In this document: piece after piece, positions 1 to 25,224 of the stretch
Layout of the letters: each line of letters starts with the position of its first letter
Position numbering within the stretch: the first letter of the stretch is position 1
Position numbers and translations under genes: made by a program
NCBI RefSeq assembly: GCF_041053055.1
Contig: NZ_CP163443.1
Coordinates: 62,001-126,000 of the forward strand
DNA length: 64,000 bases
Reading direction: 5' to 3'
DNA from: Streptomyces sp. R41
GTDB lineage: Bacteria > Actinomycetota > Actinomycetes > Streptomycetales > Streptomycetaceae
The notes under the pieces: generated by a model
What the model was told of the DNA's origin: nothing
The model's input: the letters and a program-made list of their open reading frames with translations, nothing else
Databases searched by the model: none

Positions 1-1289
1 GTCGCTCTCGCGCAGATGGTCAGGCCGGGCCCGCGTAGACGCCGCGTTGTCCGGGACGGGTGGTGGCGCTCAGCCGCGCACCAGCGGTGCCGGGCATCGG
101 GGTGCGCGGTCTTCCACGCACAGGCAGAGGAGTCGGGTCCGAGCCCGGCGTTGACGATCAGCATCTCGCCCAGGCGGTTCAGCCTACGGCAGCCCGTCGG
201 CCCGGAGAAGGAGCCGGTTCAGGGCGTCACGGGTCAGCTGTCGCTGCTCTGCGAGGACCTGTTGGACGCGTTCCTTGGCCGTCTCCACCGGGCCATGAAC
301 GCGTCCTGGCCGGCCATCAGATTACCGACGGTGCATAGCGGTCGGCATGAGAATGACCCGGCCTTTCGTCACTCACGTCAGCCACAGATGAACACCATCC
401 GTCAGTGCCAACCACGAGGTCATTGAGCCTGCGCCACTGACGCTCAGATGACGATGCCCAACTGACGCTCCTCCGCAGACCGTCACACGACAAGAGCCGA
501 CCCCGAGTCGAGCGCTCCCTGCTGGCCGTGTACTGGGCAATCTCCGGCTACGGCCTGCGCGCCTCCCGAGCCGCGGGTGGCTGGCGCTGACGATGACCGC
601 CACATTCTGCGCCCTACTGCCGTGGGGCCTGCCGAAGGAAGCCCCGAAGCCGGAGACCACCGGCCGCCTCACCGGCCAAGAAATCTCCCTGCGCACTGAC
701 ACCCCAGCCCCTCGCAACCCGACCGGGCCGCTGAGCGAGCAGCTCAACGGCGAGCGCGCTGAGAAGGCCCTGCGGGTGGTCCTCAACTCGGTGATCTTCC
801 GCACTTCAGGGCAGAACCTCACCACCGCCGGCACCTACATCGAGATGGCCTCCCGGTTCATCGAGCCGATTTCTCCTTGCCCTGGCCCTGCTCGCCGTCC
901 GTGGCCGCGTCAAGCGGTAGCAGCAACACCAGCTCGGCCGGGACCTCGACCAGGGTTCCGTCGAGGCTGTGCAGCTCGCCAACCGCGGCGCCGTCGTACG
1001 GCGCGACGGCACCGTGCTGTACGCCAACGAACTCACCCCCGAGGGCAACTGGTCGCGCCATCCCGCAGCAGAGCGGCGGTGCGCGTGGAGCGGTCGCGAC
1101 CGTGGACCGCTCCCGAGACCGCCGTCCTCCGCCGCGAGCTGCCCCGCACCCGAGGCGCCTCCCCCGCGGAGCAACGGCCCGCACGGATGCCTGCGCTTCG
1201 ACTCCGCCGCCTACCTCCCCCTACGGCACGCAGGTAACCATCTTCGACCGCATCACCCCGGTCATGCACTACAACCGGCTGCGAGGAGC
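1..1289. other. mosaic region without a convincing gene
   Basis: No open frame here has a start, ribosome site and recognisable protein together. Small pieces look protein-like but are broken. A 34-codon minus-strand stretch (288 down to 184) reads as a charged, leucine-rich helix and stops. Plus-strand stretches around 760-860 and 966-1050 have protein-like composition but run into other frames. I read it as decayed coding sequence next to the toxin locus. I cannot name the parents. Confidence 0.4.
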
Positions 1290-1670
1290 TCAGATAGGTC
1301 CCCAGATTGCTACTTCGCCGTCTGGGACGCACACAATGCGTCGCCCATCTGGGTAAACCACCCCCCAAGCCTCATATTCATCGTGCGGAGGGGCGGTCAG
1401 CTCTTCCCCTCCTTCAAAGGACATGGACAGCACTCCTGCGTCGCTGTAGCTCGCAGTTGAGATCACCGAATGGAGTAGCTCCACGATGCGTCCCGCCACT
1501 GGACCGGGGCTTTCGGGATCAAACCTCACGTGAATCCCATCAGCTCCCATGAGCGTTGCGTCCGTTTCGATGCGCATCTCGACATCTCCACTGGTGAAAA
1601 GGGTCAGCGCACTATCGAGGCAAACTCTGTCGACCGATTGCCCTCGAAGTTCCAGGTCCATGACTACCAT
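1290..1670 (-). CDS. DUF6188 family protein, probable immunity protein of the upstream RHS toxin
   Basis: A 126-aa soluble protein opening with the MDLELRGQSVDRV pattern and closing with an EAWG(V)xxPDG segment, both typical of the DUF6188 family, which is found as small genes beside polymorphic toxins. The ATG at 1670 overlaps the last codons of the RHS gene (stop at 1664-1666), so translation is probably coupled. A second in-frame ATG at 1661 gives the usual MDLEL start and may be the real one. Position directly 3' of a toxin tip, same strand and overlap are the arguments for immunity. The cognate pairing is inferred and no biochemical role can be read from the sequence. Nothing looks damaged. 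Confidence 0.75.
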   Translation of the reverse strand: MVVMDLELRGQSVDRVCLDSALTLFTSGDVEMRIETDATLMGADGIHVRFDPESPGPVAGRIVELLHSVISTASYSDAGVLSMSFEGGEELTAPPHDEYEAWGVVYPDGRRIVCVPDGEVAIWGPI

Positions 1671-9764: not shown

Positions 9765-10006
9765 AGCGCATCCCCCCCATGAACAGCGGCCCTCCCTGGC
9801 CGCAGGAGCCGTAAGAGTAGGCCACGCACCGCGTGCACCTGCGAGGTGTGTCCCCTTCCCCGTGCGCGCAGCAGCGGCCGCGTCCTGGGCGCACCGGGCA
9901 GACACCACCGACGGGCCGCCTTCGGGCCGCTGCCAGGCGACCTTACGAAGGGCACGAATCACAGGGCGTGCAGTGGCCGCCTGGGCCGTGTCGACGACCG
10001 GTGATC

Positions 10007-10144
10007 ATGTTGGGCACCGGCCACGGTCTAAAAGTCCTGCGATTCCCGTACGCCGAGCCGCCCTGCATCCACATCGTCAGCGGCCGACGGGTCGGTCGAA
10101 CGGTCCCCGTGGAAAACCTCGTCACGTGCGTTGAGCAGGCGTGA
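10007..10144 (+). CDS. short open frame, possible gene remnant
   Basis: An ATG at 10007 opens a 45-aa frame with protein-like composition (KVLRFPYAEPPCIHIVSG, then VPVENLVTC) in a stretch with no other gene. There is no good ribosome site. It reads like the C-terminal tail of a lost gene rather than a complete protein. I do not recognise the family. The rest of 9765-10348 holds nothing I can support. Confidence 0.2.
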   Translation: MLGTGHGLKVLRFPYAEPPCIHIVSGRRVGRTVPVENLVTCVEQA

Positions 10145-10348
10145 CACCCCCTCCACGCGAACCCGGTTGGAATCTGGCTTCTCAAGTGGCGGGCCGTGGA
10201 AGGCCTCGCCCCGTCAAGCGGGCGCGCGGAGTGGTGGGATCCGCCGCCTGCAAGGGATGCGCGGGAGCATGAGGGTGGATGGCGTCCCGCCAAGTGGTGT
10301 AGCGGGGCATGGCCCTTCTTGGGTGGACGTGGCTATCTGAAGGCGCCG

Positions 10349-10537
10349 TCAGGTGAACGCGGCTGCTGGCAGCTCTGCCTCCGTCTCCTCCCAGGGGAGG
10401 TCGATGCCGAGCTCGCCCTCCAGGAACCGCAGGAACGCGACGTCGCCCATCTCGTTACCGCTGTGAACGAAGCCAAGCGCCACTTCGGCTGGTTCGCCGT
10501 TCGTAAGGTGCGGCTGGCCGGGCTCGAAGGACGTCAC
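10349..10537 (-). CDS. small hypothetical protein
   Basis: A 62-aa acidic soluble protein from a GTG at 10537 preceded by GGGGAG. It lies 42 bp downstream of the DUF4240 gene on the same strand. A 17-codon ATG frame that begins at the DUF4240 stop also ends at this GTG (overlapping TGA), so translation may be handed along. The C-terminal half (FLRFLEGELGIDLPWEE) looks helical. It could be a complete small gene or the decayed end of a larger one. No family recognised. Confidence 0.4.
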   Translation of the reverse strand: MTSFEPGQPHLTNGEPAEVALGFVHSGNEMGDVAFLRFLEGELGIDLPWEETEAELPAAAFT

Positions 10538-10579
10538 CGGCTCCCCGCCGTTTCTTTTGGCGTAGCTGGGCTGTTGGTG

Positions 10580-11011
10580 CTACTCATCAGCCCAGCCGGC
10601 GGTGTTCGAGTAGGACTCGTAGGAGTAGCGGGTGCTGCGATCCCACTCTTCACCGGTGATTCGACTGTATGCCTCGTCTGGCACGTAGAGCAGGCTCTCT
10701 GCCCAGATGAGGTCTTGGGCGTAGGGAGTAAACAGCTGCGGATCGCGGAGCACTGCTTCGTAGGCTTCGCGGCTGGCGGCCACAACGGCTGCGCGGGTGT
10801 AGAGGAAGCTGTCGCTCGACAGGTCGTGCCCGTACTCCTTGCGATCCAGTCGGTAGAGCGCCCATGACAGCTGCTCGGCGAACCCGATGACCGTCGCAAG
10901 CGGTCCAGCGGAGAGACGGTTTGTCAGTGCCATGGCCAGTTGTTCGGCGTCCGGGTCGGGCGTGGACGGTGTGCAGTCGTCGATGAGCTGCCAGAAGGCG
11001 TTCTCGTTCAT
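10580..11011 (-). CDS. DUF4240 domain-containing protein
   Basis: A 143-aa protein starting MNENAFWQLIDDC, the standard opening of DUF4240 proteins (MxxxxFWxLID). A leucine-rich helix with a WALYRLDRKEYG segment and the AREAYEAVL-type motif (SREAYEAVLRDPQLF) follow. The family is common in actinobacteria and some lie near SUKH/immunity-type genes. Its activity is unknown. The ATG at 11011 is chosen because homologs start at this motif. The open frame upstream runs into an IS5 fragment and is not part of the gene, so the promoter may have been disturbed or supplied by that insertion. Confidence 0.8.
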   Translation of the reverse strand: MNENAFWQLIDDCTPSTPDPDAEQLAMALTNRLSAGPLATVIGFAEQLSWALYRLDRKEYGHDLSSDSFLYTRAAVVAASREAYEAVLRDPQLFTPYAQDLIWAESLLYVPDEAYSRITGEEWDRSTRYSYESYSNTAGWADE

Positions 11012-11075
11012 GCGCAGAGCATGATGGAGGGCTCTGACAGCGGCTGCCCACGGCCCCACCGTCTGTGCCCTACCC

Positions 11076-11330
11076 CACCAGACGACGGTGGGAGATGAGG
11101 GCTGTGGAGATGGCGACGAAGGCGAGGAAGTGTTCAGCTTTGCGCTTATAGCGTCGCCTGCCGGCAGAACGGGGACAGAGGGTGGACTGAAGCCGCGTGC
11201 TGTCGCACAGACCGCCGGGCATTCTACGATCCGGCGCATGATGGACCCCGAGGTGCCACGTCCGATCCTGTCGACCGAGGCAAGTACGGCTCGAAGATCC
11301 ACCTGATCACGGAAAGAACCGCAGATTGGG
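11076..11330. pseudogene. IS5-family transposase fragments in both orientations
   Basis: Two pieces of the same transposase type lie head to head. On the minus strand about 11165-11078 encodes the C-terminal signature RRYKRKAEHFLAF followed by ALISHRRL. On the plus strand about 11262-11320 encodes PVDRGKYGSKIHLITER, a segment from the middle of the protein. The sequence between does not continue either one. This is a rearranged remnant, not a functional element. Confidence 0.6.
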
Positions 11331-11394
11331 TGACCCGCACGTCCGTCCGCACTTACTGATCGTTTCAGAATGAGTTCCGGAGGCGGCGAAGGCA

Positions 11395-11525
11395 TATGAG
11401 GCTGCAGGTCAATTCGAGCAGACCTTGGTGGAGATCGGCGCGTCGTTCGTAGCGGGTCCGGAGCCGGCGACGTCGCGTCGGTCGATCAAGGGTTTGATGC
11501 CGCGTTTCCTCGATGCTTGACGCCT
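11395..11525 (-). pseudogene. IS5-type transposase C-terminal remnant, different group
   Basis: Minus-strand frames give RGIKPLIDRRDVAGSG and, in another frame, RYERRADLHQGLLEL followed by CSLIC. This pair of motifs marks the C-terminal third of IS5-superfamily transposases whose tail is HQGLLxLxCSLIC, distinct from the HFLAF type next door. The frames are broken and the DDE core is gone. Confidence 0.45.
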
Positions 11526-11559
11526 TCGACGCATTGCCTGAGCCGTTTTAGAGATCATC

Positions 11560-12018
11560 TCAATTGGTGAGTCTGCGGTAGCAGATGAGGGTGCAGGCGA
11601 TGCTGGTGAAGGCCAGGAAGTGGATGGCCTGCCGCTCGTAGCGACGGTGGAGACGTCGGCAGCCGGCGAGCCAGGCCATGGTGCGTTCGATGGTCCACCG
11701 GTGGCGCCCCAGCTTCTGTGACGTCTCAACTCCCTTGCGGGCGATGCGTGGTGTTATGTGGCGTAGGCGGAGCCATTGCCGCAGGTGACGGTTGTCGTAG
11801 GCTTTGTCGGCGTGAAGCTTGGCGGGGCGCCGACGGCGTGGACCGCGCCGGGATCTGATCGGTGGGATGCCGCGCACGAGCGGTTCGAGGGCCTGGCTGT
11901 CATGAAGGTTGGCGCCGGAGATGCCGACGGAAAGCGGCAGTCCGGTCCGCTCGTTGATCAAGTGGATCTTCGAGCCGTACTTGCCCCGATCTACAGGATT
12001 CGGACCCGTCAGGTCCCC
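11560..12018 (-). CDS. IS5-family transposase orfB (catalytic part)
   Basis: This frame continues the transposase one base back relative to orfA: GDLTGPNPVDRGKYGSKIHL, then HADKAYD with the second Asp and HRWTIERTMAWL with the catalytic Glu, ending CYRRLTN. The last residues and the TGA stop are encoded within the left inverted repeat. No good independent start exists between the junction and the catalytic motifs, so it is most likely made as a -1 fusion with orfA at the CTG-AAA-AAG-GGG site near 12018-12026. The fused protein would be about 270 aa, normal for the group. Confidence 0.8.
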   Translation of the reverse strand, partial: GDLTGPNPVDRGKYGSKIHLINERTGLPLSVGISGANLHDSQALEPLVRGIPPIRSRRGPRRRRPAKLHADKAYDNRHLRQWLRLRHITPRIARKGVETSQKLGRHRWTIERTMAWLAGCRRLHRRYERQAIHFLAFTSIACTLICYRRLTN

Positions 12019-12362
12019 TTTTTCAGGGCCCGCATGTTCACCGAGTCGATTGCGCATCGTGACCAGTCCAGCTCGCCTCGAGCCCCCAGCTCGTCCAGGA
12101 CCAGACGATGCAGTTTCGCCCAGACCCGTTGTCGGCTCCACTCCATGAACCGGCGGTGAGCCGTGGCCCCCGATGGCCCGAACACGGGCGGGACCTGCGA
12201 CCACGTGCACCCGGTCGTGGCCACGAAGACAATCGCCGCCAACACCTCACGGTCCCCATGACGGCGCCGACCACCACCCTGCGGCCGAGTCGGCGCCTCC
12301 GGCACCACCCGCTGGAACAACTCCCACAGCCCATCTGGGACCAGACGCTCAGTCAGCAACAC
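12009..12362 (-). CDS. IS5-family transposase orfA (N-terminal part)
   Basis: A 117-aa product with the N-terminal DUF4096-type domain of IS5/IS427-group transposases: LVPDGLWELFQRVVPE, then a basic GGGRRRHGDREV segment, GCTWSQVP, and AIDSVNM with the first catalytic Asp (AxDS). GTG start at 12362 just inside the right inverted repeat. It ends at 12009 immediately after an AAAAAGGGG run. Alone it lacks the second Asp and the Glu, so an active enzyme needs ribosomal frameshifting into orfB. Confidence 0.85.
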   Translation of the reverse strand: MLLTERLVPDGLWELFQRVVPEAPTRPQGGGRRRHGDREVLAAIVFVATTGCTWSQVPPVFGPSGATAHRRFMEWSRQRVWAKLHRLVLDELGARGELDWSRCAIDSVNMRALKKGT

Positions 12363-12519
12363 AGCACCAGACTACCGGCATCACCAATTGAGATGATCTC
12401 TTAGAAGCCGTTGTCTTTCCGGACGTGATCGTTGAGTTTCCGCTGCTCAGGCATGGTTCGGGTGTCGTTGCGGGAGAGTTCGGGCGATCAGTTCGTTCTT
12501 GGCGATGCGGAGATGACCG

Positions 12520-13047
12520 GTGACATCGGTGATGGGTTTGCTGGAGGAACGTGAGACGGCTGCCCGGGTGCGGGCGGAGGAGCTTCAGGCGGAAGCGGAC
12601 CGGATTCTCGCGGAACTTGCCGAGGCGGAGGCGGTGTTGGAGCGTCGGGTGATCGCCAGGGTCGAGCTGGCCGAGGCCCTGGCCGCGCCTGGCGATGCTG
12701 CCGATGCGTCTGCCCAGGAGGTGGCGGCCCCGGTGCCGCCGGCCGGGGCGGCGAGGGTTCCGGTCTCCGGGTCCGTCGTGCAGCGGTGGCGGGAGGGGAT
12801 GACGGCGGTGGCGCTCGCGCCGGACTACCGGCGGATCGTGGAGCTGCTGGAGGATGAACTGACGGGCGGCGGGGAGGGGTTGATGGCGAAGGAGATGACG
12901 GTCCGGCTCGGGCTCGAGTCGGTGCCGGCGAAGATCGAGGGGGTGCGGTCGAAGGCGAAGCGGCTGGTCGAGCGGGGCTGGCTGACCCTCGCGCCGTCGG
13001 GCCGGTTCATGCCGCGAGTGTCGTCTGTTCCTGACGCGGCATCCTGA
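12520..13047 (+). CDS. coiled-coil/winged-helix-like protein convergent with an IS5 transposase
   Basis: About 175 aa. The N-terminal third is a long charged helix (RVRAEELQAEADRILAELAEAEAVLERR), probably a coiled coil. A Pro/Ala linker follows, then a C-terminal domain (PDYRRIVELLED, MAKEMTVRLGLE, KIEGVRSKAKRLVERGWL) with the look of a winged helix-turn-helix. I know this type of protein from Streptomyces genomes, where it often sits beside IS5-type transposases, so it may be an accessory or passenger of that element (inference). GTG 12520 and ATG 12532 are both possible starts. Its last ~40 bp overlap the 3' end of the opposite transposase gene. Confidence 0.6.
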   Translation: MTSVMGLLEERETAARVRAEELQAEADRILAELAEAEAVLERRVIARVELAEALAAPGDAADASAQEVAAPVPPAGAARVPVSGSVVQRWREGMTAVALAPDYRRIVELLEDELTGGGEGLMAKEMTVRLGLESVPAKIEGVRSKAKRLVERGWLTLAPSGRFMPRVSSVPDAAS

Positions 13048-13966
13048 TCGTCTGACCGTGGGCAGTGGTGCGGGCCAGGCGGCGGGCCATAAGCATGCTC
13101 GCCGAGAAGTGGATGAACGCCTCGCTGCTGGCGGGTAGCGTCTCGTAGTCCCGGGCCAGACGCCTCGTGCGCAACAGCCACCCCAAAGTTCGTTCCACCA
13201 CCCACCGTCTCGGCAGTACCACGAATCCCTTCATGTCGTCGCTCCGCTTGACGATCTGCAGGGTGAGCTGGAGTTTCTCCTTCGCCCAGTCGACCAGGAC
13301 GCCCGTGTAGCCGCCGTCGGCCCACACCAGGCTGATCTTCCTGAACCGCGTCCGCAGCCGGGGCAGCATGACGCGGGCGGCCTGCCGGTCGGTGACGTCC
13401 GCGGCGGTCACCAGCACCATCAACAGCAGGCCGAGGCAGTCCGTGATGACGTGCCGGCGCCTGCCGTTGATCTTCTTCCCGCCGTCGAAGCCGCGTGAAG
13501 CAGCCGGCACCGAGGCGGCGCCCTTCACCGACTGCGAGTCGATGATCGCCGCACTCGGCTCCGTCTGACGGCCCTCGGCCTCACGGACCTTCCCGCGCAG
13601 CCGGTCGTGCAACTCCTTTACCAGGCCGTTCTCCCTCCACCTGCGGAAGAAGGCATACACGCGGTCCCAAGCGGGGAAATCCGCAGGAACCGAGCGCCAC
13701 TTCACGCCGTTGTCGGTGACGTAGAAGACCGCATCCAGCATCTGCCGGTGACAGTAGCCCTCCGGCTGGCCGCCCCTACCCTCCAGCCACGCCGGCACCG
13801 GCAGCGCGTCACGCACCACCGCCCACTCCGCGTCGGTCATGTCCGACGGATACCGCCGCGCCCTCTCGGGCCGGTCGGCCGCGTTCCCGAACCGGTGAGC
13901 GAGGCAATCGCACACCGACACGCGGGAGTTGGACGGGACGAGGGCCGTCACGCAAGACTGGAACAA
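13007..13966 (-). CDS. IS5-family transposase, single ORF
   Basis: A 319-aa frame. The recognisable protein begins at RRYPSDMTDAEW (about residue 38) with the DUF4096-like domain (GVKWRSVPADFPAWDRVY). The DDE core is complete: IIDSQSVKG (D), LVWADGGYTG (D), and RRWVVERTLGWL (E), followed by RRLARDYE. The first ~40 residues are unusual, so the ATG at 13840 may be the working start. Terminal repeats were not found with confidence. A 9-bp inverted repeat (13965-13973 and 14015-14023) brackets the 5' end. The frame is intact and could be active. Confidence 0.85.
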   Translation of the reverse strand: MFQSCVTALVPSNSRVSVCDCLAHRFGNAADRPERARRYPSDMTDAEWAVVRDALPVPAWLEGRGGQPEGYCHRQMLDAVFYVTDNGVKWRSVPADFPAWDRVYAFFRRWRENGLVKELHDRLRGKVREAEGRQTEPSAAIIDSQSVKGAASVPAASRGFDGGKKINGRRRHVITDCLGLLLMVLVTAADVTDRQAARVMLPRLRTRFRKISLVWADGGYTGVLVDWAKEKLQLTLQIVKRSDDMKGFVVLPRRWVVERTLGWLLRTRRLARDYETLPASSEAFIHFSASMLMARRLARTTAHGQTIRMPRQEQTTLAA

Positions 13967-14108
13967 CAGGGCCTCCTGATACTCGAGTGGCGTCGCAACC
14001 CCGAGCTACCAAGGGGCCCTGTTCTCATGCATCCACCCGGCTAAGATCACCCGACCAGGCACCCTGTTCGACCAGAACCGTCCTCGTGATCGATAGGAAT
14101 ACGGCCTC

Positions 14109-14128
14109 TTAGACGCCATCTCAATTGG
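14109..14128. repeat. solitary IS5-type terminal inverted repeat
   Basis: These 20 bases differ from the left end of the intact IS at 11551 at only two internal positions and are preceded by TTA as in the other copies. The sequence that follows is not the transposase 3' end but about 380 bp holding an ankyrin gene. IS coding sequence resumes only near 14505. It is either the true left end of the older IS copy, with extra DNA inside it, or a leftover end. Confidence 0.6.
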
Positions 14129-14186
14129 TGACGAGTGGCGTCGATAGTCGCTGGCAGACGTGCTGTGGCGGCGGTTGAATGTCGTG

Positions 14187-14525
14187 GTGAGCAACTTCTG
14201 GACAACACCTGCGCATCACGCGGTCGAGCACGAGGATGCGGAAACCCTGGCCCAGATGCTGGCCGACGGCACCGATCCCGATGAGGTCTTCAGCAACATG
14301 ACGCTGTTGACGCACGCGATCGATGCCGAGGGCGACGGCTCCCTGCAGAGCGGCAAACCGTTGACCGTGCACACCACTGCTGTGCTGCTGGCCTTCGGGG
14401 CTGACCCGGAGCTCGCCGACCCAGACGGTCGCACCCCCATGGACGTGGCCGAGTACTACGGCCACGACCTGGCGATGAAGCTACTGCGGGCCCACATCAG
14501 CGGCCGAGCCGCCGGTAACAGATGA
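14187..14525 (+). CDS. short ankyrin-repeat protein fused at its tail to IS sequence
   Basis: About 112 aa with ankyrin-type helices: TPAHHAVEHEDAETLAQMLADGTDP, LLTHAIDAEGDG, TAVLLAFGADPELADPDG, and TPMDVAEYYGHDLAMKLLRAHI. Ankyrin repeats bind partner proteins and no enzyme domain is present. The start is uncertain (GTG 14187, 14184 or 14160, none with a good ribosome site). The last residues (SGRAAGNR) are read from the opposite strand of an IS5 transposase gene, so the natural C-terminus was replaced. The upstream side is an IS end. It may be a displaced gene on its way to decay or a gene carried by the IS. Confidence 0.6.
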   Translation: MSNFWTTPAHHAVEHEDAETLAQMLADGTDPDEVFSNMTLLTHAIDAEGDGSLQSGKPLTVHTTAVLLAFGADPELADPDGRTPMDVAEYYGHDLAMKLLRAHISGRAAGNR

Positions 14526-14708
14526 GCGTGCAGGCGATACTCGTGAAGGCGAGGAAATGCTCGGCCTTGCGCTCATAACGACGGTGGAGGCGGCGGCAGC
14601 CGGCGAGCCAGGACATGGTGCGTTCGATCGTCCAACGGTGACGTCCCAATCGCTGGGAGGTCTCAACTCCTTTGCGGGCGATGCGGTGCCTGATGCCGCG
14701 GCTGCTTA
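14505..14708 (-). pseudogene. outer IS5 copy, transposase C-terminal half (interrupted by the inner IS)
   Basis: The minus-strand reading gives the C-terminal end of the same transposase type (RIARKGVETSQRLGRHRW, ERTMSWLAGCRRLHRRYERKAEHFLAF). It picks up exactly where the fragment at 15561-15706 stops (LHADKGYDYPHLRRWL), once the inner element 14709-15560 and its TTA duplication are removed. This proves the nesting. Its own left end is missing or displaced to 14109. Confidence 0.8.
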
Positions 14709-15175
14709 GACGTCATCTCATTGGTGAGTCTGCGGTAGCAGATGAGGGTGCAGGCGATGCTGGTGAAGGCTAGGAAGTGGTCGGCTTTGCGTTCGTAGCG
14801 GCGGTGGAGTCGGCGGCATCCGGCGAGCCAGGACATGGTGCGTTCGACGGTCCAGCGGTGGCGGCCAAGTCGTTGTGAGGTCTCGATGCCCTTGCGGGCG
14901 ATGCGATGCCGGATGCCTCGGCTGGATAACCATCGCCGCAGGTGGGCGTAGTCGTAGCCCTTGTCGGCGTGAAGTTTGTCGGGCCTGCGGCGTCGGCGTC
15001 CCCGGCGGGAGCGGATCGGAGGGATGCCCTGTACCAGGGGAATCAGCGCCTGGCTGTCGTGCGTGTTGGCGCCCGAGATGCCGACGGACAGGGGCAGGCC
15101 GGTCCGTTCCGTGATCAAGTGGATCTTTGACCCGTACTTGCCCCGATCTACAGGATTCGGGCCTGTCAGATCCCC
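14663..15175 (-). CDS. IS5-family transposase orfB of the nested copy, stop codon lost
   Basis: Catalytic half with HADKGYD and HRWTVERTMSWL, reached by a -1 shift from orfA. In the intact copy the protein ends CYRRLTN and stops within the terminal repeat. Here a one-base deletion in that repeat turns the stop into NEMTS, and translation continues about 18 codons out of the element into the interrupted older IS before stopping at 14663. Both active-site residues of this half are present. Whether the tail matters is unknown. Confidence 0.75.
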   Translation of the reverse strand, partial: GDLTGPNPVDRGKYGSKIHLITERTGLPLSVGISGANTHDSQALIPLVQGIPPIRSRRGRRRRRPDKLHADKGYDYAHLRRWLSSRGIRHRIARKGIETSQRLGRHRWTVERTMSWLAGCRRLHRRYERKADHFLAFTSIACTLICYRRLTNEMTSKQPRHQAPHRPQRS

Positions 15176-15560
15176 CTTTTCAAGGCCCGCATGTTGACCG
15201 AGTCGATCGCGCACCGGGACCAGTCCAACTCACCGCGGGACCCGAGTTCGTCGAGGACCAGGCGGTGGAGTCTGGCCCAGACTCGGGCCTTCGTCCACTC
15301 GGTGAATCGTCGGTGAGCCGTCGCGCCGGACGGCCCGAACGACGCGGTCGGCAGCTGCTGCCACGTGCATCCCGAGGTCGCCACGAACACGATTGCGGCC
15401 AACACTTCGCGGTCGCCGTGCCGGCGCCGACCACCACCCTGAGGCCGCGACGGCGCCTCCGGCACCACCCGCTGGAACAGCTCCCACAACTCGTCCGGCA
15501 CCAGCCGCTCAACGATCCCCGCCATGGTCGACAGCGTACTCAACCAAATGAGATGGCTTC
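14709..15560 (-). mobile_element. IS5-family insertion sequence nested in an older copy
   Basis: An 852-bp relative of the element at 11551. Its imperfect ends (GACGTCATCTCATTGGTGAG at 14709 and the reverse complement of CAACCAAATGAGATGGCTTC at 15560) are flanked by TTA duplications (14706-14708 and 15561-15563). The left end has lost one T compared with the intact copy (CATTGG instead of CAATTGG). That base loss also removes the orfB stop codon. Confidence 0.85.
15166..15525 (-). CDS. IS5-family transposase orfA of the nested copy
   Basis: A 119-aa product (MAGIVERLVPDELWELF start, GCTWQQLP, AIDSVNMRAL) equivalent to orfA at 12009. The ATG at 15525 is the first start inside the right end. 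The frame itself stays open upstream into the outer IS, a by-product of the nesting. It ends at 15166 just after an AAAAGGGGG run (15172-15180), the counterpart of the frameshift site in the intact copy. Confidence 0.8.
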   Translation of the reverse strand: MAGIVERLVPDELWELFQRVVPEAPSRPQGGGRRRHGDREVLAAIVFVATSGCTWQQLPTASFGPSGATAHRRFTEWTKARVWARLHRLVLDELGSRGELDWSRCAIDSVNMRALKRGI

Positions 15561-15706
15561 TTAACCATCGCCGCAGGTGGGGATAGTCGTAGCCCTTGTC
15601 GGCATGGAGCTTGCCGGGCCTGCGGCGCCGGGGGCCCCGGTGGGACCGGACCGGCGGTATGCCCTTCACAAGTGGGATCAGGGCCTGGCTGTACCCGGCA
15701 CCGCGG
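15561..15706 (-). pseudogene. outer IS5 copy, transposase central fragment
   Basis: The minus-strand reading gives QALIPLVKGIPPVRSHRGPRR, then RPGKLHADKGYDYPHLRRW, the middle of the transposase that continues at 14708 beyond the nested element. On its upstream side (about 15705) homology stops abruptly against the unrelated plus-strand gene 15672-16424, so the N-terminal half and the right end of this copy are deleted. Confidence 0.75.
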
Positions 15707-16424
15707 TTCGGACAAGGCCGAGCACAGCGTCAACCAGCGCCGGTTGCTGCTGCTCCTGCTCGACAAGCGGCAGCAGGTAGCGCACCTGAGTGCGCTGGCG
15801 CAGGTGCCGCTGGCGATGTGGCTGTGGTGGGACGGCTACGTCTCCACCCGGCAGGCGCAGCGGGCGTGGGTGACGTGGGTGGGGCGTGGCAGGCGCAGCC
15901 AGGAGGTGGCGCGCGAGGGTGCTGTGGGTCTGCTGGAGCAGGTCGGGCATCAACTGGCCGGCGAGACCGCGCGGGCCCGGTTCGTGCGGATCATCACCGC
16001 ACTGGGCAACGGGAGGACCCTGACGGTGCGCGGGCGAGCCGAGCTGCTGGATGCCGTACGGGACGTGATGGAGCCGGAGTCGGTGTTCGCCGCCAGCGGC
16101 CTCGTCCGCGCGCTCGGCCCCGCGCAGACACCGATGACCGTCGAGGCGGTCGTGGGCCACGTCGAGGCCCTCAGCGCCGCGCTGAGCCGCACCCTGGACG
16201 GGACCGTGGACAGTGCGCTGCTGGAGCGTGCCCGTGCCGTCCACCGTGCCTCCATGGCCGACTACCTCGCCCAACGCGGCGACCTCGCCGCCGGAGCCGG
16301 AGAGCTGGCCAGCCTCTTTCGCGAGCCCACCCTCCAGGAACAGTTCGACCAGGCCGGGAAGCAGCTGCTGCTCGTCGTAGGGATGGAGCTGCTCCACGGC
16401 CGTACCCGTCCGGCCGGGCGGTAG
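15672..16424 (+). CDS. hypothetical protein, 5' end replaced by an IS remnant
   Basis: A 250-aa frame whose first ~12 codons lie in IS5 sequence read backwards, so the native start is lost. From about residue 14 it is a helical, Leu/Arg-rich protein: QRRLLLLLLDKRQQVAHLS, MWLWWDGYVSTRQAQRAW, then an Ala/Glu-rich region of several helices (AELLDAVRDVMEPES, VVGHVEALSAALSRTL) ending LLLVVGMELLHGR. No family recognised. The long intact frame suggests the truncation is recent or that it is still expressed. The next 230 bp (16425-16654) contain only low-confidence open frames. Confidence 0.5.
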   Translation: MGSGPGCTRHRGSDKAEHSVNQRRLLLLLLDKRQQVAHLSALAQVPLAMWLWWDGYVSTRQAQRAWVTWVGRGRRSQEVAREGAVGLLEQVGHQLAGETARARFVRIITALGNGRTLTVRGRAELLDAVRDVMEPESVFAASGLVRALGPAQTPMTVEAVVGHVEALSAALSRTLDGTVDSALLERARAVHRASMADYLAQRGDLAAGAGELASLFREPTLQEQFDQAGKQLLLVVGMELLHGRTRPAGR

Positions 16425-16777
16425 GAGCGGCGTACTTCGCCGGCCAGACAAGGCGCAGCCGTCAACGGGCGGTTCGCGATGCCCTTCGAAGGGCGTCGGA
16501 ACGAGGCCGCGAGATCCTGCTGCGTTCAGCCCCCCGGGTCCTGGGGGTGCCCGTCCATATCACCGTGCCGCGGGTGAAGGGGGTGGGTGCCGTCCAGGGC
16601 GTCGGCTTACGCCGAGGCGTGCGGCACTCGATCATCGACCAGGTCACCCACTGAAGCGAGGTAACCACCAGGTTCGCGTAGCGATGGCCGGCCTCGGACG
16701 CCCCCCAGGAAGCCCCACAGCCCGGCCGATCCTCTGGAGATACCATCAGCTCTCTTTGCGATCATCTAGGGGAAACC

Positions 16778-17371
16778 GTGCGTCGACGTCGAGTATCCAT
16801 ATGTGCCGCTCTTGGAACTCTTGCCCTGGTCACAGCCTGCTCGGACTCACAGGCCTCCCCCACCTCCACCGCACAGCCATTGACTTCGGCCACCACGCAG
16901 TCATCGACTCCGGCCACCACGCAGTCATTGACTACGGCCACCACGCTCGACCAAGCCGATGAGCGCCTCCACGAGCTGTTGCTCAAGGTGACCACGGCCG
17001 CACGGAAGTCAGGACCGCCCCCGATCGGCGCCGTGCATCCCGCAGTGGAGACCGCTCCTGACTGCCAGGATCCGGGCACCGCGAGACACACGGTAACCAT
17101 GTCGCTCCTTCAGGGGGCCGGGTCTGCGGACGTTGGCCCGGATGTCCGAGCCGACCTCCAGAAGCAGGGCTGGAGCATGGGCGGATGGCGCATCCATGAC
17201 AAAAGAAGGCGCTACACATCTCCGGGCAAGTTCGGGGGATTCACCATCTTCGTCTCCTACGTGAAGGGCTCCGGCGAGACGAACGTGCTCGCGAACACTC
17301 CGTGCCTGAAGGGCTCGCCACTCACGAAGTCCTCAATGTTCCCCGAACCTGGCAGCACCGAACCCCAGTAA
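16778..17371 (+). CDS. lipoprotein with Thr-rich repeat linker
   Basis: A 197-aa exported lipoprotein from a GTG with an AGGGGAAACC ribosome site. The basic N-terminus, hydrophobic core and LALVTAC lipobox place the lipidated Cys about residue 21. A Ser/Thr linker follows, made of imperfect 8-residue repeats (TSATTQSS-like) encoded by 24-bp tandem repeats. The mature domain has two Cys (APDCQ, NTPCLKG), probably a disulfide, and a DLQKQGWSMGGWRI segment. No family named. It stands alone between IS fragments. Confidence 0.7.
   Translation: MRRRRVSICAALGTLALVTACSDSQASPTSTAQPLTSATTQSSTPATTQSLTTATTLDQADERLHELLLKVTTAARKSGPPPIGAVHPAVETAPDCQDPGTARHTVTMSLLQGAGSADVGPDVRADLQKQGWSMGGWRIHDKRRRYTSPGKFGGFTIFVSYVKGSGETNVLANTPCLKGSPLTKSSMFPEPGSTEPQ
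16878..16949 (+). repeat. three 24-bp tandem repeats in a lipoprotein gene
   Basis: Units at 16878-16901, 16902-16925 and 16926-16949 are nearly identical (core CGGCCACCACGCAGT) and keep the reading frame, giving the Thr-rich spacer behind the lipobox. In-frame units of this kind can change number by slippage and alter the length of the surface linker. Confidence 0.8.
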
Positions 17372-17454
17372 GCTCCCAGCGGTGCGCAGGACGACAAGGA
17401 CGGCGGACTGCGGCTAAGGGCTGGCTAGCTCGTGCCCGCACGCACCTCGTGCAG

Positions 17455-17612
17455 CAGCTGGCGATGCGGTGCCGGATCCTGCGGCCCCGGAGCCATCTCC
17501 TCAGGTGGTCGTAGTCGTAGCCCTTGTCGGCGTGGAGCTTGGCAGGACGTCTGCGGCGGGCCCTCGGCGGGAGCGGATGGGCGGGATCCCGCGCACAAGG
17601 GGCTTCAGGTAG
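17455..17612 (-). pseudogene. IS5 transposase central fragment
   Basis: The minus strand encodes KPLVRGIPPIRS in one frame and LHADKGYDYDHLRRWLRG, then RIRHRIA in another, the same central transposase segment as at 15561, with a frameshift in the RRR-rich stretch. Nothing else of the element remains. It lies just upstream of the immunity-like gene at 17656. Confidence 0.65.
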
Positions 17613-17655
17613 GAGTCGGCTCGGGCTTGTCGGCGCGGACGGACATAATTCGGCT

Positions 17656-18111
17656 GTGGATCTGAGACCGGAGTTGTTGCCCCCGCCCGTGAGTCGGCAG
17701 CGGCTGGACGAGGTGTGCGCCGAGGTGGAGCGGATCGCTGACCTGCTGGAAACCCGCCCGGAGGCGGCGGGTGAGGCGATCAAGGCCTTCAACGCGATGA
17801 CCGGGCACGACTACGTGGCCCTCGACTTCGCCGAGTACCACGGCAGCAGGAGCCTGGAAGAGTTCGGCACAGAGGCGGCCCGGCCGGCCCGCCCCGTGGT
17901 CGCGGACATCACCCGGGACGAACTCGTGGAGATCGTCCGCAGACTGCTGACGGTCTCTCCGGAGAGCGACTACTACCTGCGGCTCCTGGAAGCGAACGTG
18001 CCGCATCCCCACGTGATTGACCTGATCTTCCACCCCTCGGACGACCTTCAGGACGCATCTGCGGAGCAGATTGTCGATGCGGCTCTGAAGTACCGACCGA
18101 TCGCACTCTGA
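17656..18111 (+). CDS. colicin/pyocin-type (E9imm-like) bacteriocin immunity protein with N-terminal extension
   Basis: A 151-aa protein from GTG 17656. Residues about 84-151 match the small four-helix immunity family of nuclease colicins and pyocins: ITRDELVEIVRRLLTV, LRLLEANVPHPHVIDLIFHPSDD and EQIVDAALKYRPIAL reproduce the family pattern (HPxxxDLIFxP, EEIVxxxxxYKP). Such proteins bind and block DNase or tRNase toxin tips. Residues 1-80 are an acidic helical extension not needed for that fold. No toxin gene lies next to it, only IS debris, so it looks like an orphan. The family call rests on motif pattern alone. Confidence 0.65.
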   Translation: MDLRPELLPPPVSRQRLDEVCAEVERIADLLETRPEAAGEAIKAFNAMTGHDYVALDFAEYHGSRSLEEFGTEAARPARPVVADITRDELVEIVRRLLTVSPESDYYLRLLEANVPHPHVIDLIFHPSDDLQDASAEQIVDAALKYRPIAL

Positions 18112-20414: not shown

Positions 20415-20594
20415 GTGACCGATACAGGCAGCGACAGCATGCACCCAGGTCTGACCATCACGGTCTACCGAGTCGACCCCGAGACGATGAAGCGCACCCC
20501 CGTCTACTCCCGCTCGCTCTCGCCCGCCGACGAGCCCGTATTCAGCCTGGCCTTCCCGCCGTGCCGCTGCTTCCGCTGCACGAAAGGCGGCTGA
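20415..20594 (+). CDS. small Cys-rich hypothetical protein
   Basis: 59 aa from GTG 20415: TITVYRVDPETMKRTP, then LAFPPCRCFRCTKGG at the end. The terminal CRCFRC cluster suggests metal binding. Proteins of this size with a PPCxCxxC tail are frequent beside XRE regulators in Streptomyces (from memory). It is divergent from the XRE gene and 4 bp upstream of the next small gene, so the two are probably co-transcribed. Confidence 0.6.
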   Translation: MTDTGSDSMHPGLTITVYRVDPETMKRTPVYSRSLSPADEPVFSLAFPPCRCFRCTKGG

Positions 20595-20598
20595 CCGG

Positions 20599-20799
20599 AT
20601 GAGCCCGATGTGGGACGACAAGCCCGAGCACACGGAAGGGATCTGCGTCGCCTGCGGCCAGCACACCGATAACGGCATAGTTCGCTGGCTGCCCCGCACG
20701 TCCGGACCCGACGTCCGCCTGATCGTCCACGCAGAGGGCAACGAGTGCTGGCCCAAGCAACCCGTGGAGCCCATCCGGCTGGCCAGCTCCGGCCTTTGA
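20599..20799 (+). CDS. small hypothetical protein with CxxC
   Basis: 66 aa from ATG 20599, four bases after the previous stop. Contains ICVACGQHTDNGIVRWLPR and a later Cys (NECWPK), a possible zinc site. Same direction as the aaRS-like gene 120 bp downstream. Unknown function, probably part of the XRE-divergent cluster. Confidence 0.55.
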   Translation: MSPMWDDKPEHTEGICVACGQHTDNGIVRWLPRTSGPDVRLIVHAEGNECWPKQPVEPIRLASSGL

Positions 20800-20918
20800 G
20801 ACCCCGCCCTCGTACCCCGTGGCTCCTGAGGGCGGGCGGCCCAGTAAGCCCGATCAGAGCGGCGCACACATCGAAGCCGGTGCCGCCGTCCTGTCTATCC
20901 ACAGAGGGGGAATGAACG

Positions 20919-22031
20919 GTGTCTCTGCACCCTGTCTCACCCAACACGGTGCTCGCCAACGCGCTCACGAGCGCCGAGGATGTTCTCGCACCATGCATTC
21001 GCAATACGCCGCCCGACCGCGTCGTGTTCGTCGTGGGCACTCAGATCAACGGCGCGCCGCACCTGGGAACTTCGCTCGTGCAGTCCCTCAGCTTCGCCGC
21101 TGCGGCGCGCGTCCGCGACCGCTTCGCGTTACCTGTCGAGGTGCACTTCGGCGCCCTCGACAACGCGCCGCACGAGGTCATCACCGACCCGGCATCGGGC
21201 CACAGCTACCAACGCGCCTACGCGCACGCGCTCGGCGAGGACGCCCTGGCCGCGGACGTCGATGAGATGTACCGGCCGCTGTTCGCCGAACTGTCCGAGC
21301 GGCTGCACGTGCCTTACTCGATCGAGATGTACTCGCAGCAGCAGGCCGGCGAGCACTTCCGGCGAACGTGGCTTCGCACGCATCGACGCATCAACGCTGC
21401 TCGCTGGTGGCTCGCCCCCTCGACGGGTGTGCCGCACGTGCGCGTCCCCTGCCCGCAGCCCGGGTGCGGATGGGCAGAGAAGTACGCCGAGCGGACCTGC
21501 ATTCGCACGAGCGGCGACGAGCGCGCCGAAGTGAGCTCAGTCTGCCTGCATCACGGCCCGTATGAGGTCACCATCGAGCCGACCCGAGGCGGTTACCTCG
21601 ACCTCGCAACGCTGTATCGGAATCTCGTCAAAGAGTTGTCTCTCGCCGGGTCCCCGGGGCGCCTGTACGTCATGGTGAAGGGCGGCGACTGGGTGTTCGG
21701 CTCGCAGCTCGTCGACGGCGCACTGCAGGCAGTCGGGCTCACGCCGGGGCAGCGGCCGGCGCGGCTATTCTGCCCGCAGGTCGTCACGGACACGGGCGCG
21801 AAGCTATCGAAGTCCCTCATACGAGACGGTCTCGCCGACTTGCCCGACGGCTCCGCCCCTTGGATGCTCGACACCCGACTCTGGTCAGGATCGTTGTCCG
21901 ACTACGCCGAGCAGCTGCTCGGCATGGCCGAGGTGCTGCTGTCGAACCCCCGGCACTTCTTCCGCTCGTACTCGGCCGGCGAACTCGGCCGCCTGATGAC
22001 AACAGCCACTAGGAGCGTTCCCGCCTCATGA
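20919..22031 (+). CDS. stand-alone class I aminoacyl-tRNA synthetase-like protein (catalytic domain only)
   Basis: 370 aa from GTG 20919 behind AGAGGGGG. The class I signatures are clear: INGAPHLGT (HIGH-type, residues 43-51) and AKLSKSL (KMSKS, about 294-300). The pocket-like segment MVKGGDWVFGSQLVDGAL lies about 252-269. A Cys/His cluster (C178, C183, C194, C209, H211/H212) lies in the insertion where class I lysyl- and methionyl-type enzymes often bind zinc. After KMSKS only ~70 residues remain, so no anticodon-binding domain is present. It should activate an amino acid or similar acid with ATP. The acceptor need not be a tRNA. It overlaps the ASCH gene by 4 nt, implying shared function. 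Confidence 0.75.
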   Translation: MSLHPVSPNTVLANALTSAEDVLAPCIRNTPPDRVVFVVGTQINGAPHLGTSLVQSLSFAAAARVRDRFALPVEVHFGALDNAPHEVITDPASGHSYQRAYAHALGEDALAADVDEMYRPLFAELSERLHVPYSIEMYSQQQAGEHFRRTWLRTHRRINAARWWLAPSTGVPHVRVPCPQPGCGWAEKYAERTCIRTSGDERAEVSSVCLHHGPYEVTIEPTRGGYLDLATLYRNLVKELSLAGSPGRLYVMVKGGDWVFGSQLVDGALQAVGLTPGQRPARLFCPQVVTDTGAKLSKSLIRDGLADLPDGSAPWMLDTRLWSGSLSDYAEQLLGMAEVLLSNPRHFFRSYSAGELGRLMTTATRSVPAS

Positions 22032-22384
22032 AGGAAACCGCCGCTCGCGTCCACGAGCTGAACCTGTACCGCCGGTACTTCGACCTCGTCGCAGCCGGCC
22101 GCAAGACGATCGAGGTGCGGGTGCGGTACCCACACCTCAAGGACCTCACCGCCAGCGACGTGATCCGCTTCCGAATCAAGGGCACCGAAGAGACGTGCGA
22201 AGTACTCGTGCGGCGGGTCACCGCGTATGACGACTTCGAGGCGCTGCTCGACGGCGAGGGACCAGTGAACGTCAACCCGACCGCGAGCCGCAACGAACAG
22301 CTCGCGAACATTCGAAGTATCTATGGCCCTGAAAAGGAAGCGCTCGGCGCTCTCGCGATCGATATCGAGCTCATCGCATCGTGA
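22028..22384 (+). CDS. ASCH domain protein
   Basis: 118 aa, ATG overlapping the preceding stop (ATGA at 22028). The ASCH pattern is strong: LNLYRRYFDLVAAGRKTIEVRV (residues 11-32) with K26, T27 and E29 at the positions of the GxKTxExR active-site/RNA-binding motif, then DVIRFRIK and CEVLVRRVTAYDDFEALL. ASCH proteins resemble PUA domains and include RNA binders and the N4-acetylcytidine amidohydrolase YqfB. Coupling to an aaRS-like enzyme suggests an RNA or acyl-adenylate product as substrate (inference). The reading frame is complete. Confidence 0.8.
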   Translation: MKETAARVHELNLYRRYFDLVAAGRKTIEVRVRYPHLKDLTASDVIRFRIKGTEETCEVLVRRVTAYDDFEALLDGEGPVNVNPTASRNEQLANIRSIYGPEKEALGALAIDIELIAS

Positions 22385-23350: not shown

Positions 23351-23791
23351 TCACTCGTACCGGCCAGATTCCTTGTGCCAGTCGTAGTTGGAGCGCTGCC
23401 AGTTGCCCATCCCCGTGATGAAGTACTCGACGCCTGGTTGGCCGGTGTCAGACAGGAGCCGGTATTCGTCGGTCGCCTGCAGGAGTTCTGCGTGGTCCTG
23501 GAAGCGCCGCACAGCGGCGTGGAGTTGTTCCCTGCTCCTAGCGAGGACCTCCTCGAGACTCGGCCCTGACCGCTCCCGGATGATCACATGGTCGTGGAAT
23601 CCGCCGCTCTCCTTCTCCTTCTTTGCACTGAACGCGTCGTTCACCTGGGCGACGATGTCGCCCAGGTGCTCGCGCAAGCGATTCACCGGTGCCGTCGACT
23701 GGATGGACTCGGGAATCCCGAAGTGCCATCCACGCTCCAGTAGGTCGAGGTACACCGGCGCCCCACCGGCGATGGGGCGCAGTGCACACAT
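23351..23791 (-). CDS. hypothetical protein, about 146 aa
   Basis: A soluble, charged protein: VYLDLLERGWHFGIPESIQ, a helix LREHLGDIVAQVNDAFSAKKEKESG, FHDHVIIRERSGPSLEEVLARS, and a C-terminal YFITGMGNWQRSNYDWHKESGRYE. ATG 23791 gives 146 aa. The internal GTG at VYLDLLERGW, preceded by GGTGGGG, is also plausible. No family recognised. It lies downstream of the PAP2 gene on the same strand (41-bp gap). Confidence 0.55.
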   Translation of the reverse strand: MCALRPIAGGAPVYLDLLERGWHFGIPESIQSTAPVNRLREHLGDIVAQVNDAFSAKKEKESGGFHDHVIIRERSGPSLEEVLARSREQLHAAVRRFQDHAELLQATDEYRLLSDTGQPGVEYFITGMGNWQRSNYDWHKESGRYE

Positions 23792-23832
23792 AGCCCGGGA
23801 AGCGCTCAGCCCACAACCTGATGCACCATGAC

Positions 23833-25224
23833 TCAAACCAGCTCGGGCTGCGGTTCCGGTTGCTGCGCTGGTGCCGCATTCGGATCCCACAGCTTGGTGG
23901 TCCGCACGTAGCCGTGGACCACTGAGGTCATCGCCAGAATGAGAAGTGGTCCAAACACCCACGGGTGTTTGGCCATCTCCATCGGCAGATAGCGATATGA
24001 CACCAAGAGCGCGGCGAAGACCGTCGCACCGTAGGCGACCAGCTGGATTCCTGGCCGGTCCCAGCCACGGTCGAGCGAGCGCATCGCCGCCTCGATCGTG
24101 AGAGCAAACACCACACCGGCAACGAGATCCGCGCCGTAGTGGTAGCCGAATCCGAGCGTCGCGCTCAGCGTGGCAATGAGCCAGAACGCGCCTGCGAATC
24201 GCAGAAGCCGTGGACCCTTGCGGGAATGAATGAAGAGCGAGGTGGCCCACGCCGTGTGCAGGCTGGGCATGCAGTTGCGTGGGGTGATCTGGTCGAACGG
24301 GATCTGGTGCGGGGTGTAGATCGGCGGCGGCATGTCCGGCCACAGGTTGGCCACCGCCCAGTGGCCGCCGTCGGCGCCGTAGGCGAAGACCGGTCCGACC
24401 ACCGGGAAGAGCATGTAGATGCCGGGCCCGAGCAGGCCGATGACCAGAAAGGTGCGCACCAGATGGTGGCCCGGGAAGCGACGCTCGACCGCCACGTTAC
24501 GCAGCTGGTACAGCGCGAAGATCGCCGCTGCCAGCGGGAGCTGACCATAGACACCGGCGAGAACATGGGAACCGATCGGGCCGATGGCCTCGACAATCCG
24601 CCCTGCCAGCCACGACGGGTTGCCCAGCGCGTGATCGGCGGTTGCCACGTACTGGTCGAGCACCGCCGGGCGGGTCTTCGACGTGATGAGCAGCCAGGTA
24701 TCGCCAGTCTTGTGGCCGGCCACCAGCAGCAGGCCCAGCCCGACACCCTTCAGCAGCAGGACACGTTCCCGGCCGGTGCGGCGCGTGACAGCGATGACCG
24801 CATAGCCCAAAATCACCCACAACGCGCCGTTGCCGAAGTTCATCCTGGCGTCGACCGCCCACCGCACCAGCCAGAAGGCGACGTCGATGCCGATCGCGAC
24901 ACCAGCCGCGATGAACCGTTGCCGCCAGGTGAGCACCACCATCATCAACGCCATACCGGCGTACAACAGCGGCCCCGAATGGGGGGCGAATATCACCTCT
25001 CGCACCTGGTTGGTGATCGGCCCCGGCAGGCCGTAGCGGCGCGCGGCGATCTCCAGCGTGATGAGGAATCCGAGAGCCGCCACACCGGCCATGGCCCACA
25101 GCATCGCCCGCCGTTGACGCCACGCGGCGAACGTAATTCTGCAGGTTATTCGCGAAAACACCCGCAACGCTATAGATATCAATTGTTCGGCCGATTTGTT
25201 AGATGTTAGGTAGATGGGTAACAC
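23833..25224 (-). CDS. PAP2-superfamily integral membrane protein (AUR1-like)
   Basis: Up to 463 aa with about ten hydrophobic segments. Two PAP2 signatures face the catalytic site: NCMPSLHTAW (C2, nucleophile-assisting His, about residue 315) and GFGYHYGADLVAG (C3, His and Asp, about 357). The arrangement and length match AUR1/inositolphosphotransferase-type PAP2 enzymes, which move phosphate or phospho-inositol head groups between lipids. The C-terminus is Pro/Gln-rich and probably cytoplasmic. The start is uncertain. GTG 25224 opens the frame in AT-richer DNA that may be promoter, while GTG at VFSRIT or ATG 25104 would also precede the first membrane helix. Confidence 0.8.
   Translation of the reverse strand: MLPIYLTSNKSAEQLISIALRVFSRITCRITFAAWRQRRAMLWAMAGVAALGFLITLEIAARRYGLPGPITNQVREVIFAPHSGPLLYAGMALMMVVLTWRQRFIAAGVAIGIDVAFWLVRWAVDARMNFGNGALWVILGYAVIAVTRRTGRERVLLLKGVGLGLLLVAGHKTGDTWLLITSKTRPAVLDQYVATADHALGNPSWLAGRIVEAIGPIGSHVLAGVYGQLPLAAAIFALYQLRNVAVERRFPGHHLVRTFLVIGLLGPGIYMLFPVVGPVFAYGADGGHWAVANLWPDMPPPIYTPHQIPFDQITPRNCMPSLHTAWATSLFIHSRKGPRLLRFAGAFWLIATLSATLGFGYHYGADLVAGVVFALTIEAAMRSLDRGWDRPGIQLVAYGATVFAALLVSYRYLPMEMAKHPWVFGPLLILAMTSVVHGYVRTTKLWDPNAAPAQQPEPQPELV

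Follow-up and report, generated by a model that had tools for sequence, protein, structure and literature searches.

A mobile Streptomyces gene pair of a LysRS-I-related synthetase core and an ASCH protein, with a possible role outside decoding

The window analysed here is a stretch of 64,000 nucleotides from Streptomyces sp. R41, corresponding to bases 62001-126000 of one 10.46 Mb contig (NZ_CP163443.1). It contains two overlapping forward-strand genes, which encode a class I aminoacyl-tRNA synthetase (aaRS)-like enzyme and an ASCH-domain protein and which are discussed below as a possible two-component enzyme working outside decoding. The features of this pair are listed by window position (aa, amino acids).

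20919..22031, + strand: class I aaRS-like enzyme, 370 aa, GTG start; a LysRS-I-like catalytic core without an anticodon-binding domain
21042..21071, + strand: HIGH-type motif, residues 42-51 (Q-I-N-G-A-P-H-L-G-T); Q42, N44, P47, H48 and G50 invariant in 44 sequences
21450..21554, + strand: Cys3His zinc-ribbon-like insert (C178, C183, C209, H212), invariant in 44 sequences; putative metal site
21681..21689, + strand: G255-x-D257 motif of the class I active site, invariant in 44 sequences
21795..21815, + strand: KMSKS-type motif, residues 293-299 (G-A-K-L-S-K-S); G293, K295 and K298 invariant in 44 sequences
22028..22031, + strand: ATGA stop/start overlap; the same 4-bp overlap in 80/97 loci with both genes
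22028..22384, + strand: ASCH-domain protein, 118 aa, ATG start, PH0355-like; PF04266 at 42.2 bits, PDB 2z0t at E 9.3e-8
22097..22120, + strand: ASCH core GxKxxExR, residues 24-31; G24, K26, E29 and R31 invariant in 19 sequences

An initial annotation of this DNA had described an aaRS-like gene whose stop overlaps the start of an ASCH gene, and both open reading frames (ORFs) are present as described: the TGA stop of the first (22029-22031) overlaps the ATG start of the second (22028-22030), an arrangement that suggests translational coupling. The HIGH-type motif (Q42-x-N44-x-x-P47-H48-L49-G50-T51), the KMSKS-type motif (K295-L-S-K298-S) and the Cys/His cluster were likewise recovered, and Q42, N44, P47, H48, G50, K295 and K298 as well as C178, C183, C209 and H212 are invariant among the 44 homologues, which are diverse. 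The identity of the downstream gene product was also confirmed, with a PF04266 score twice the cut-off (42.2 versus 21.2 bits). It is related in sequence to Pyrococcus PH0355, the protein of PDB entry 2z0t, and has the PUA-like fold of solved ASCH proteins.

The conservation of the pair was assessed in 101 loci, comprising the best 80 of 147 genome-scan loci, 12 viral contigs, 8 phage or plasmid records and the genome of the window itself, and including two pairs of loci with identical aaRS DNA (L084/L085 and L090/L094). An ASCH gene lies directly downstream of the aaRS-like gene in 97 of them, the other four being a locus at a contig end (L056) and distant plasmid relatives (L095-L097). Besides the 80 overlapping junctions, there are 16 loci that encode both parts in a single frame and one (L013) in which a short gap separates the two genes. 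The fused clade is composed of Pseudonocardiales and other actinomycete genera (Actinomadura, Nocardiopsis and one Streptomyces plasmid), and a second, apparently separate fusion was found in one Streptomyces locus (L059). A protein search with the aaRS-like enzyme returned 790 relatives, 120 of them listed; among the matches listed, the named relatives are nearly all from Streptomyces and mostly called 'hypothetical protein'. The fused protein returned 706 relatives, and the 120 listed all measure 460-522 aa and all carry PF04266. In the 76 loci outside the fused clade that remained after those with stops or several pieces were left out, the two proteins show correlated evolutionary distances (r 0.61), a value reached in 0 of 2000 permutations. 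The two genes therefore occur together well beyond this genome, as the proposal of the initial annotation required, and form one conserved unit.

The unit had originally been drawn at 20415..22384, with two small Cys-containing proteins and a divergent XRE regulator as parts of the system. These are open frames (the small ones at 20415-20594 and 20599-20799), and the XRE-like ORF has no Pfam family at E 1e-3. None of the three recurred as a neighbour of the pair in a tblastn comparison of the 101 loci; consequently, the real unit is 20919-22384, and the upstream ORFs and the regulator are better left out of it. No tRNA genes were found in the window.

The pair is horizontally mobile, being distributed over chromosomes, plasmids, phages and mobilisable elements. 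Matches, fragments included, were detected in 41 of 295 Streptomyces genomes, and in a phylum-wide sample the family occurs in 3 of 296 genomes, two of which are Streptomyces. Thirteen plasmid records had a match: nine actinobacterial (79-100% protein coverage), one fragment and three distant relatives. The Streptomyces phages Picard and Mojorita carry the pair, which in Picard adjoins a serine integrase. Picard gp28 and gp29 have the same order and are 71% and 79% identical to the window proteins; they fall in PHROG 35625 ('tRNA synthetase') and PHROG 19935 ('RNA-binding protein'), which are annotation names only. Thus, the composition for which the initial annotation knew no named system is already catalogued, by PHROG names only; no function for gp28/gp29 was found, and no paper on an aaRS-ASCH pair was found in the open-licence literature. 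The flanks include a relaxase-type cluster in 18 loci and a MobC-like cluster in 8 (one member of each checked), and the variable neighbours include XRE-type regulators, HATPase, methyltransferase, WbqC, DUF218 and NUDIX genes. Fused loci have, upstream and in the same direction, a protein of about 308 aa in 15 loci and, in the 7 where it was called, an AAA_28 protein, the loci concerned being L071, L072, L074-L081, L092, L093 and L098-L100. Elsewhere in the window, a frame at 23354-24343 (- strand) matches the C-terminal terpene synthase family PF19086 (E 3e-9) over residues 187-280 only, and is probably a relic or has a wrong start.

The origin of the enzyme was examined by sequence and fold. 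The aaRS-like protein matches no Pfam and no NCBIfam family, so the PF01921 cut-off of class I lysyl-tRNA synthetase (LysRS-I) is not reached. The nearest fold of its model in the fold search is LysRS-I (1irx), a relative that the initial annotation had put forward as a candidate, and the model aligns with residues 3-338 of the 507 of that protein. The anticodon-binding domain of LysRS-I is C-terminal; since the alignment stops at residue 338 and the protein has 370 aa, such a domain has no room, and the description of a free-standing class I aaRS-like enzyme without it holds. A Macrococcus relative scored 21.9 bits against PF01921, under the cut-off of 27, and together with the fold search this points to a relation with LysRS-I. 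The comparison of the family profile with three LysRS-I sequences by hhalign was weak (E 0.0027, probability 11%), and a PDB sequence search with the same profile gave weak GluRS and MetRS matches alone (best E 0.027). In the phylogenetic tree, the family stands apart from two LysRS-I sequences with a support of 100, and its invariant Q42, N44, P47 and K298 are replaced by S, S, I and S in those two sequences. Hence the enzyme shares the catalytic fold of LysRS-I (PF01921, 1irx) but differs from it in lacking the C-terminal domain, in its signature residues and in having no Pfam match; it represents a family of its own, related to LysRS-I, that has an ASCH partner, a distinct active-site signature and no Pfam or NCBIfam name.

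The LysRS-I fold would also be expected of a decayed housekeeping-synthetase fragment or an ordinary spare LysRS, an explanation that is already contradicted and now highly improbable. A separate, complete LysRS-I is encoded elsewhere in the same genome, which rules out the fragment that the initial annotation had named as its own counter-explanation. Besides the separate position in the tree, the catalytic residues are invariant and the median ratio of nonsynonymous to synonymous substitution rates is 0.30 for the aaRS-like gene and 0.24 for the ASCH gene (91 and 92 sequences, with pairs having near-saturated synonymous sites excluded). The absence of an anticodon domain and the presence of the separate LysRS-I both argue against a role in decoding.

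Synthetase cores are known outside translation in N-N-bond formation, thiol-cofactor and tRNA-modification chemistry, and MshC and GluQ-RS are class I cores that serve outside decoding. MshC, GluQ-RS and BshC were among the fold matches of the aaRS-like enzyme (Z 12.4 to 16.8, below LysRS-I), and to our knowledge none of them has an ASCH partner. By analogy with GluQ-RS, the core might aminoacylate a modified nucleotide within tRNA or rRNA, and ASCH would then take over RNA binding from the missing anticodon-binding domain. This is consistent with a core without an anticodon domain, with the RNA-type partner domain and with the fixed packing of core against ASCH that is predicted in the fused form; even so, it is considered the least likely of the three functional alternatives discussed here. 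Hydrazine synthetases (Spb40, PyrN) likewise combine an aaRS-like domain with a second domain, and are reported to activate an amino acid without tRNA (PMC11705231). They consist of a MetRS-like domain and a cupin partner, whereas the window pair is LysRS-I-like with ASCH, and no cupin was among the Pfam matches of either window protein.

For the ASCH partner, it was originally suggested that it could be a YqfB-like hydrolase. YqfB, an N4-acetylcytidine amidohydrolase, shares the ASCH family, and the window protein has Lys and Arg at the positions of YqfB K21 and R26. However, of the catalytic set Lys21, Thr24, Arg26 and Glu74 given in PMC6972931, the Thr24 position is occupied by the invariant Glu29, in a residue register taken from a weak PDB match (E 0.39) that does not resolve the Glu74 equivalent. 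Because the position of the nucleophile is not kept, a hydrolase working by YqfB's proposed mechanism is not supported, and this candidate was rejected. More generally, the reported targets of ASCH relatives are nucleic acids or nucleosides (PMC5615036, PMC6972931, PMC7641849).

A second ASCH type, about 42-44% identical to that of the window and without any aaRS, was observed joined to NUDIX, with or without an additional methyltransferase, or in tandem units that lie next to regulator, NUDIX and kinase-like frames (L122:3158-4846, L123:1634-4834 and L145:696-5982, the neighbour labels of the last by reading of frames). ASCH-like small proteins also adjoin restriction-modification genes of MvaI/BcnI type and SinI type (L120:1479-4426 and L121:3223-4411) on a Latilactobacillus and an Enterococcus plasmid.

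Beyond the actinobacterial pair, relatives of the enzyme provide further information about the context of the core; they include proteins from Bacillota and Pseudomonas (P0126, P0136, P0146). On a phage contig (L124), an aaRS-like gene 28% identical to that of the window is followed by an overlapping ASCH gene (PF04266 26.0 bits; PDB 5gus, which we take to be the Z. mobilis ASCH protein, E 3e-8); 64% identity to a Croceifilum protein suggests a Bacillota type. On the same contig (L124:4208-5885), a 202-aa gene after an XkdF-like protease stops where the aaRS-like gene starts, and may be a structural gene cut by insertion of the pair. On Macrococcus plasmids (L096:4134-8048, L097:6506-10420), two ATP-grasp genes precede an aaRS-like gene overlapping a gene for a 137-aa protein that resembles ASCH, with a divergent MFS transporter. 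This protein has no Pfam or PDB match itself (one relative matched at E 0.021); its similarity to the L124 ASCH (BLASTP E 5e-4) and to the window ASCH family (hhalign P 5e-4, probability 31%) is suggestive of ASCH, not proof. A Pantoea plasmid operon (L095:7192-10972) encodes a methyltransferase, the aaRS-like enzyme, LOG, a DMT transporter and a Ham1-like protein, without ASCH, and suggests a nucleotide-derived small molecule. Two Streptomyces genomes have aaRS-like enzymes about 41-42% identical to that of the window and without ASCH. In one (L148, genome G092; 42%), the cluster at 9936-18052 comprises MFS, CmnB-like, AurF N-oxygenase, CmnK-like, carbamoyltransferase and methyltransferase genes, the CmnB-like and CmnK-like products being diaminopropionate enzymes; in the other (L150, genome G162; 572-4747), carbamoyltransferase, methyltransferase, aaRS-like and dioxygenase genes follow the L148 order. 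The cluster looks like an uncharacterised amino-acid natural-product cluster, and L148/L143 is the sister of the ASCH clade with 91% support. Viral scans with Macrococcus-like and Pantoea-like profiles returned no relative. One further frame (L144:2324-3892) begins like an M20 peptidase, by reading, and ends with the C-terminal half of an aaRS-like protein; it may be a relic.

The alternative raised by these neighbourhoods is small-molecule biosynthesis or modification, in which the aaRS-like enzyme would join an amino acid to a small metabolite and the ASCH protein would act in tailoring, in self-protection or as an accessory enzyme. The closest relatives that lie outside the ASCH clade (L148/L143 and L150), the Pantoea operon and the ATP-grasp and MFS neighbours in Macrococcus all agree with it; the actinobacterial ASCH-coupled loci, on the other hand, keep the pair only, and their neighbours shift between clades without recurring pathway genes. 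This alternative is regarded as unlikely.

Another proposal is a toxin-antidote or anti-phage module, in which the aaRS-like enzyme would acylate RNA, tRNA or a nucleotide and so halt growth, and ASCH would bind the enzyme or reverse the modification. The mobility and patchy distribution, with phages, plasmids and relaxase-type neighbours, are in accord with such a module, as is the pattern of gene loss. In the 295 Streptomyces genomes, 30 of the 32 near full-length aaRS copies lie beside ASCH, the other two (L148, L150) being those of the diaminopropionate-type cluster, and no main-clade aaRS copy lacks ASCH, whereas an intact ASCH without an intact aaRS was found in 13 loci (L130-L142), seven of them with aaRS remnants. 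Not counted are G241, with its aaRS spread over contigs, G285, whose ASCH is truncated, and further ASCH matches that are partial; the ASCH frame of G226:C5 is open. Among the 97 pair loci, four aaRS frames are broken (L067, L068, L073 and L080; L140 and L067 are probably the same locus) and no ASCH frame is. The direction of decay fits an antidote role of ASCH, but the aaRS-like gene, being three times as long, should decay more often in any case: under a gene-length null (370 versus 118 aa), P is 0.14 for 7/7 and 0.26 for 13/15 with the two ASCH-free cluster copies included. Only the main-clade 13/13 gives a lower value by the same formula (about 0.03), yet 6 of these 13 loci have no aaRS trace. 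Moreover, some frameshifts may be sequencing errors, and no ASCH accompanies two aaRS remnants (L151, L152) in the DNA retrieved. The bias is thus not clearly above the gene-length expectation, and decay asymmetry was rejected as proof of a toxin-antitoxin system. The fusion seen in 16 of the 97 loci is also not what would be expected of a toxin and its antitoxin, and PADLOC-DB matched neither window protein, nor a fused homologue (a neighbouring methyltransferase, L052, matched mad2 weakly, at 27 bits).

A possible precedent for such a module lies in Escherichia phage PhiR47_2 (L125:1950-3378), where an annotated GevT toxin gene overlaps a downstream GevA antitoxin gene, as in the window pair; GevA belongs to the ASCH family (35 bits). 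GevT has no Pfam match and reads as a GNAT from its sequence; no paper under the names GevT/GevA was found. In section 10 of PMC7641849, operons of GNAT-EVE with ASCH are proposed as toxin-antitoxin systems, and (PIN)-GNAT-EVE operons also include ASCH. However, GevT and the aaRS-like protein are not related (BLASTP E 0.23, hhalign probability 0.4%), so that identity of the pair with GevT/GevA was rejected. Taken with its counter-evidence, the toxin-antidote proposal is considered improbable, if slightly less so than the biosynthetic one. As a separate observation, an orphan ASCH gene lies behind the same epimerase-like gene (label by reading) in two Streptomyces genomes (L133:2917-4346, L134:2850-4397), an arrangement that points to retention of ASCH on its own.

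The reading preferred here, with a rough probability of 45%, is a mobile two-component enzyme, sometimes one fused chain, in which the LysRS-I-related core aminoacylates a non-decoding acceptor and ASCH handles the acceptor or product. Conservation of the HIGH and KMSKS residues points to ATP-dependent amino-acid activation: the core would convert ATP and an amino acid, or an unusual and perhaps basic one, to the adenylate and would pass the activated amino acid to an acceptor that is probably something other than ordinary decoding tRNA. The tight coupling and the fusions imply a common target for the enzyme and ASCH; the latter would sit against the core and recognise or position the acceptor or product, for which a nucleotide, a nucleoside or an RNA nucleotide is most probable. 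Given this coupling and the nucleic-acid or nucleoside substrates of ASCH relatives, amino-acid transfer to a nucleotide or RNA acceptor is, with moderate support, the best single reading, and each of the initially suggested roles (RNA modification, synthesis of an aminoacyl product, toxin-antidote pair) retains some support. Several points weigh against this reading, whose substrate and reaction are predicted from sequence. The ASCH-free relatives (Pantoea L095, Streptomyces L148 and L150) lie in small-molecule-like clusters, so the core need not use a nucleotide acceptor; ASCH, standing alone in 13 Streptomyces loci, may have its own role; and the RNA version is weakened because YqfB analogues reportedly bind no nucleic acid or RNA and are taken to act on free nucleosides (PMC9599836).

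In its boldest form, which is doubtful at present, the preferred two-component enzyme would represent a new mobile module, in which a synthetase core released from decoding marks a nucleotide or RNA with an amino acid and a dedicated ASCH domain reads or erases this mark, which would be a toxin, a signal or a protective tag, apparently with different ASCH subfamilies joined to the enzyme family in two phyla. Identification of the acceptor would uncover a new conjugate of an amino acid or else a mobile effector of a new type, and one branch of the little-characterised ASCH superfamily would gain a function.
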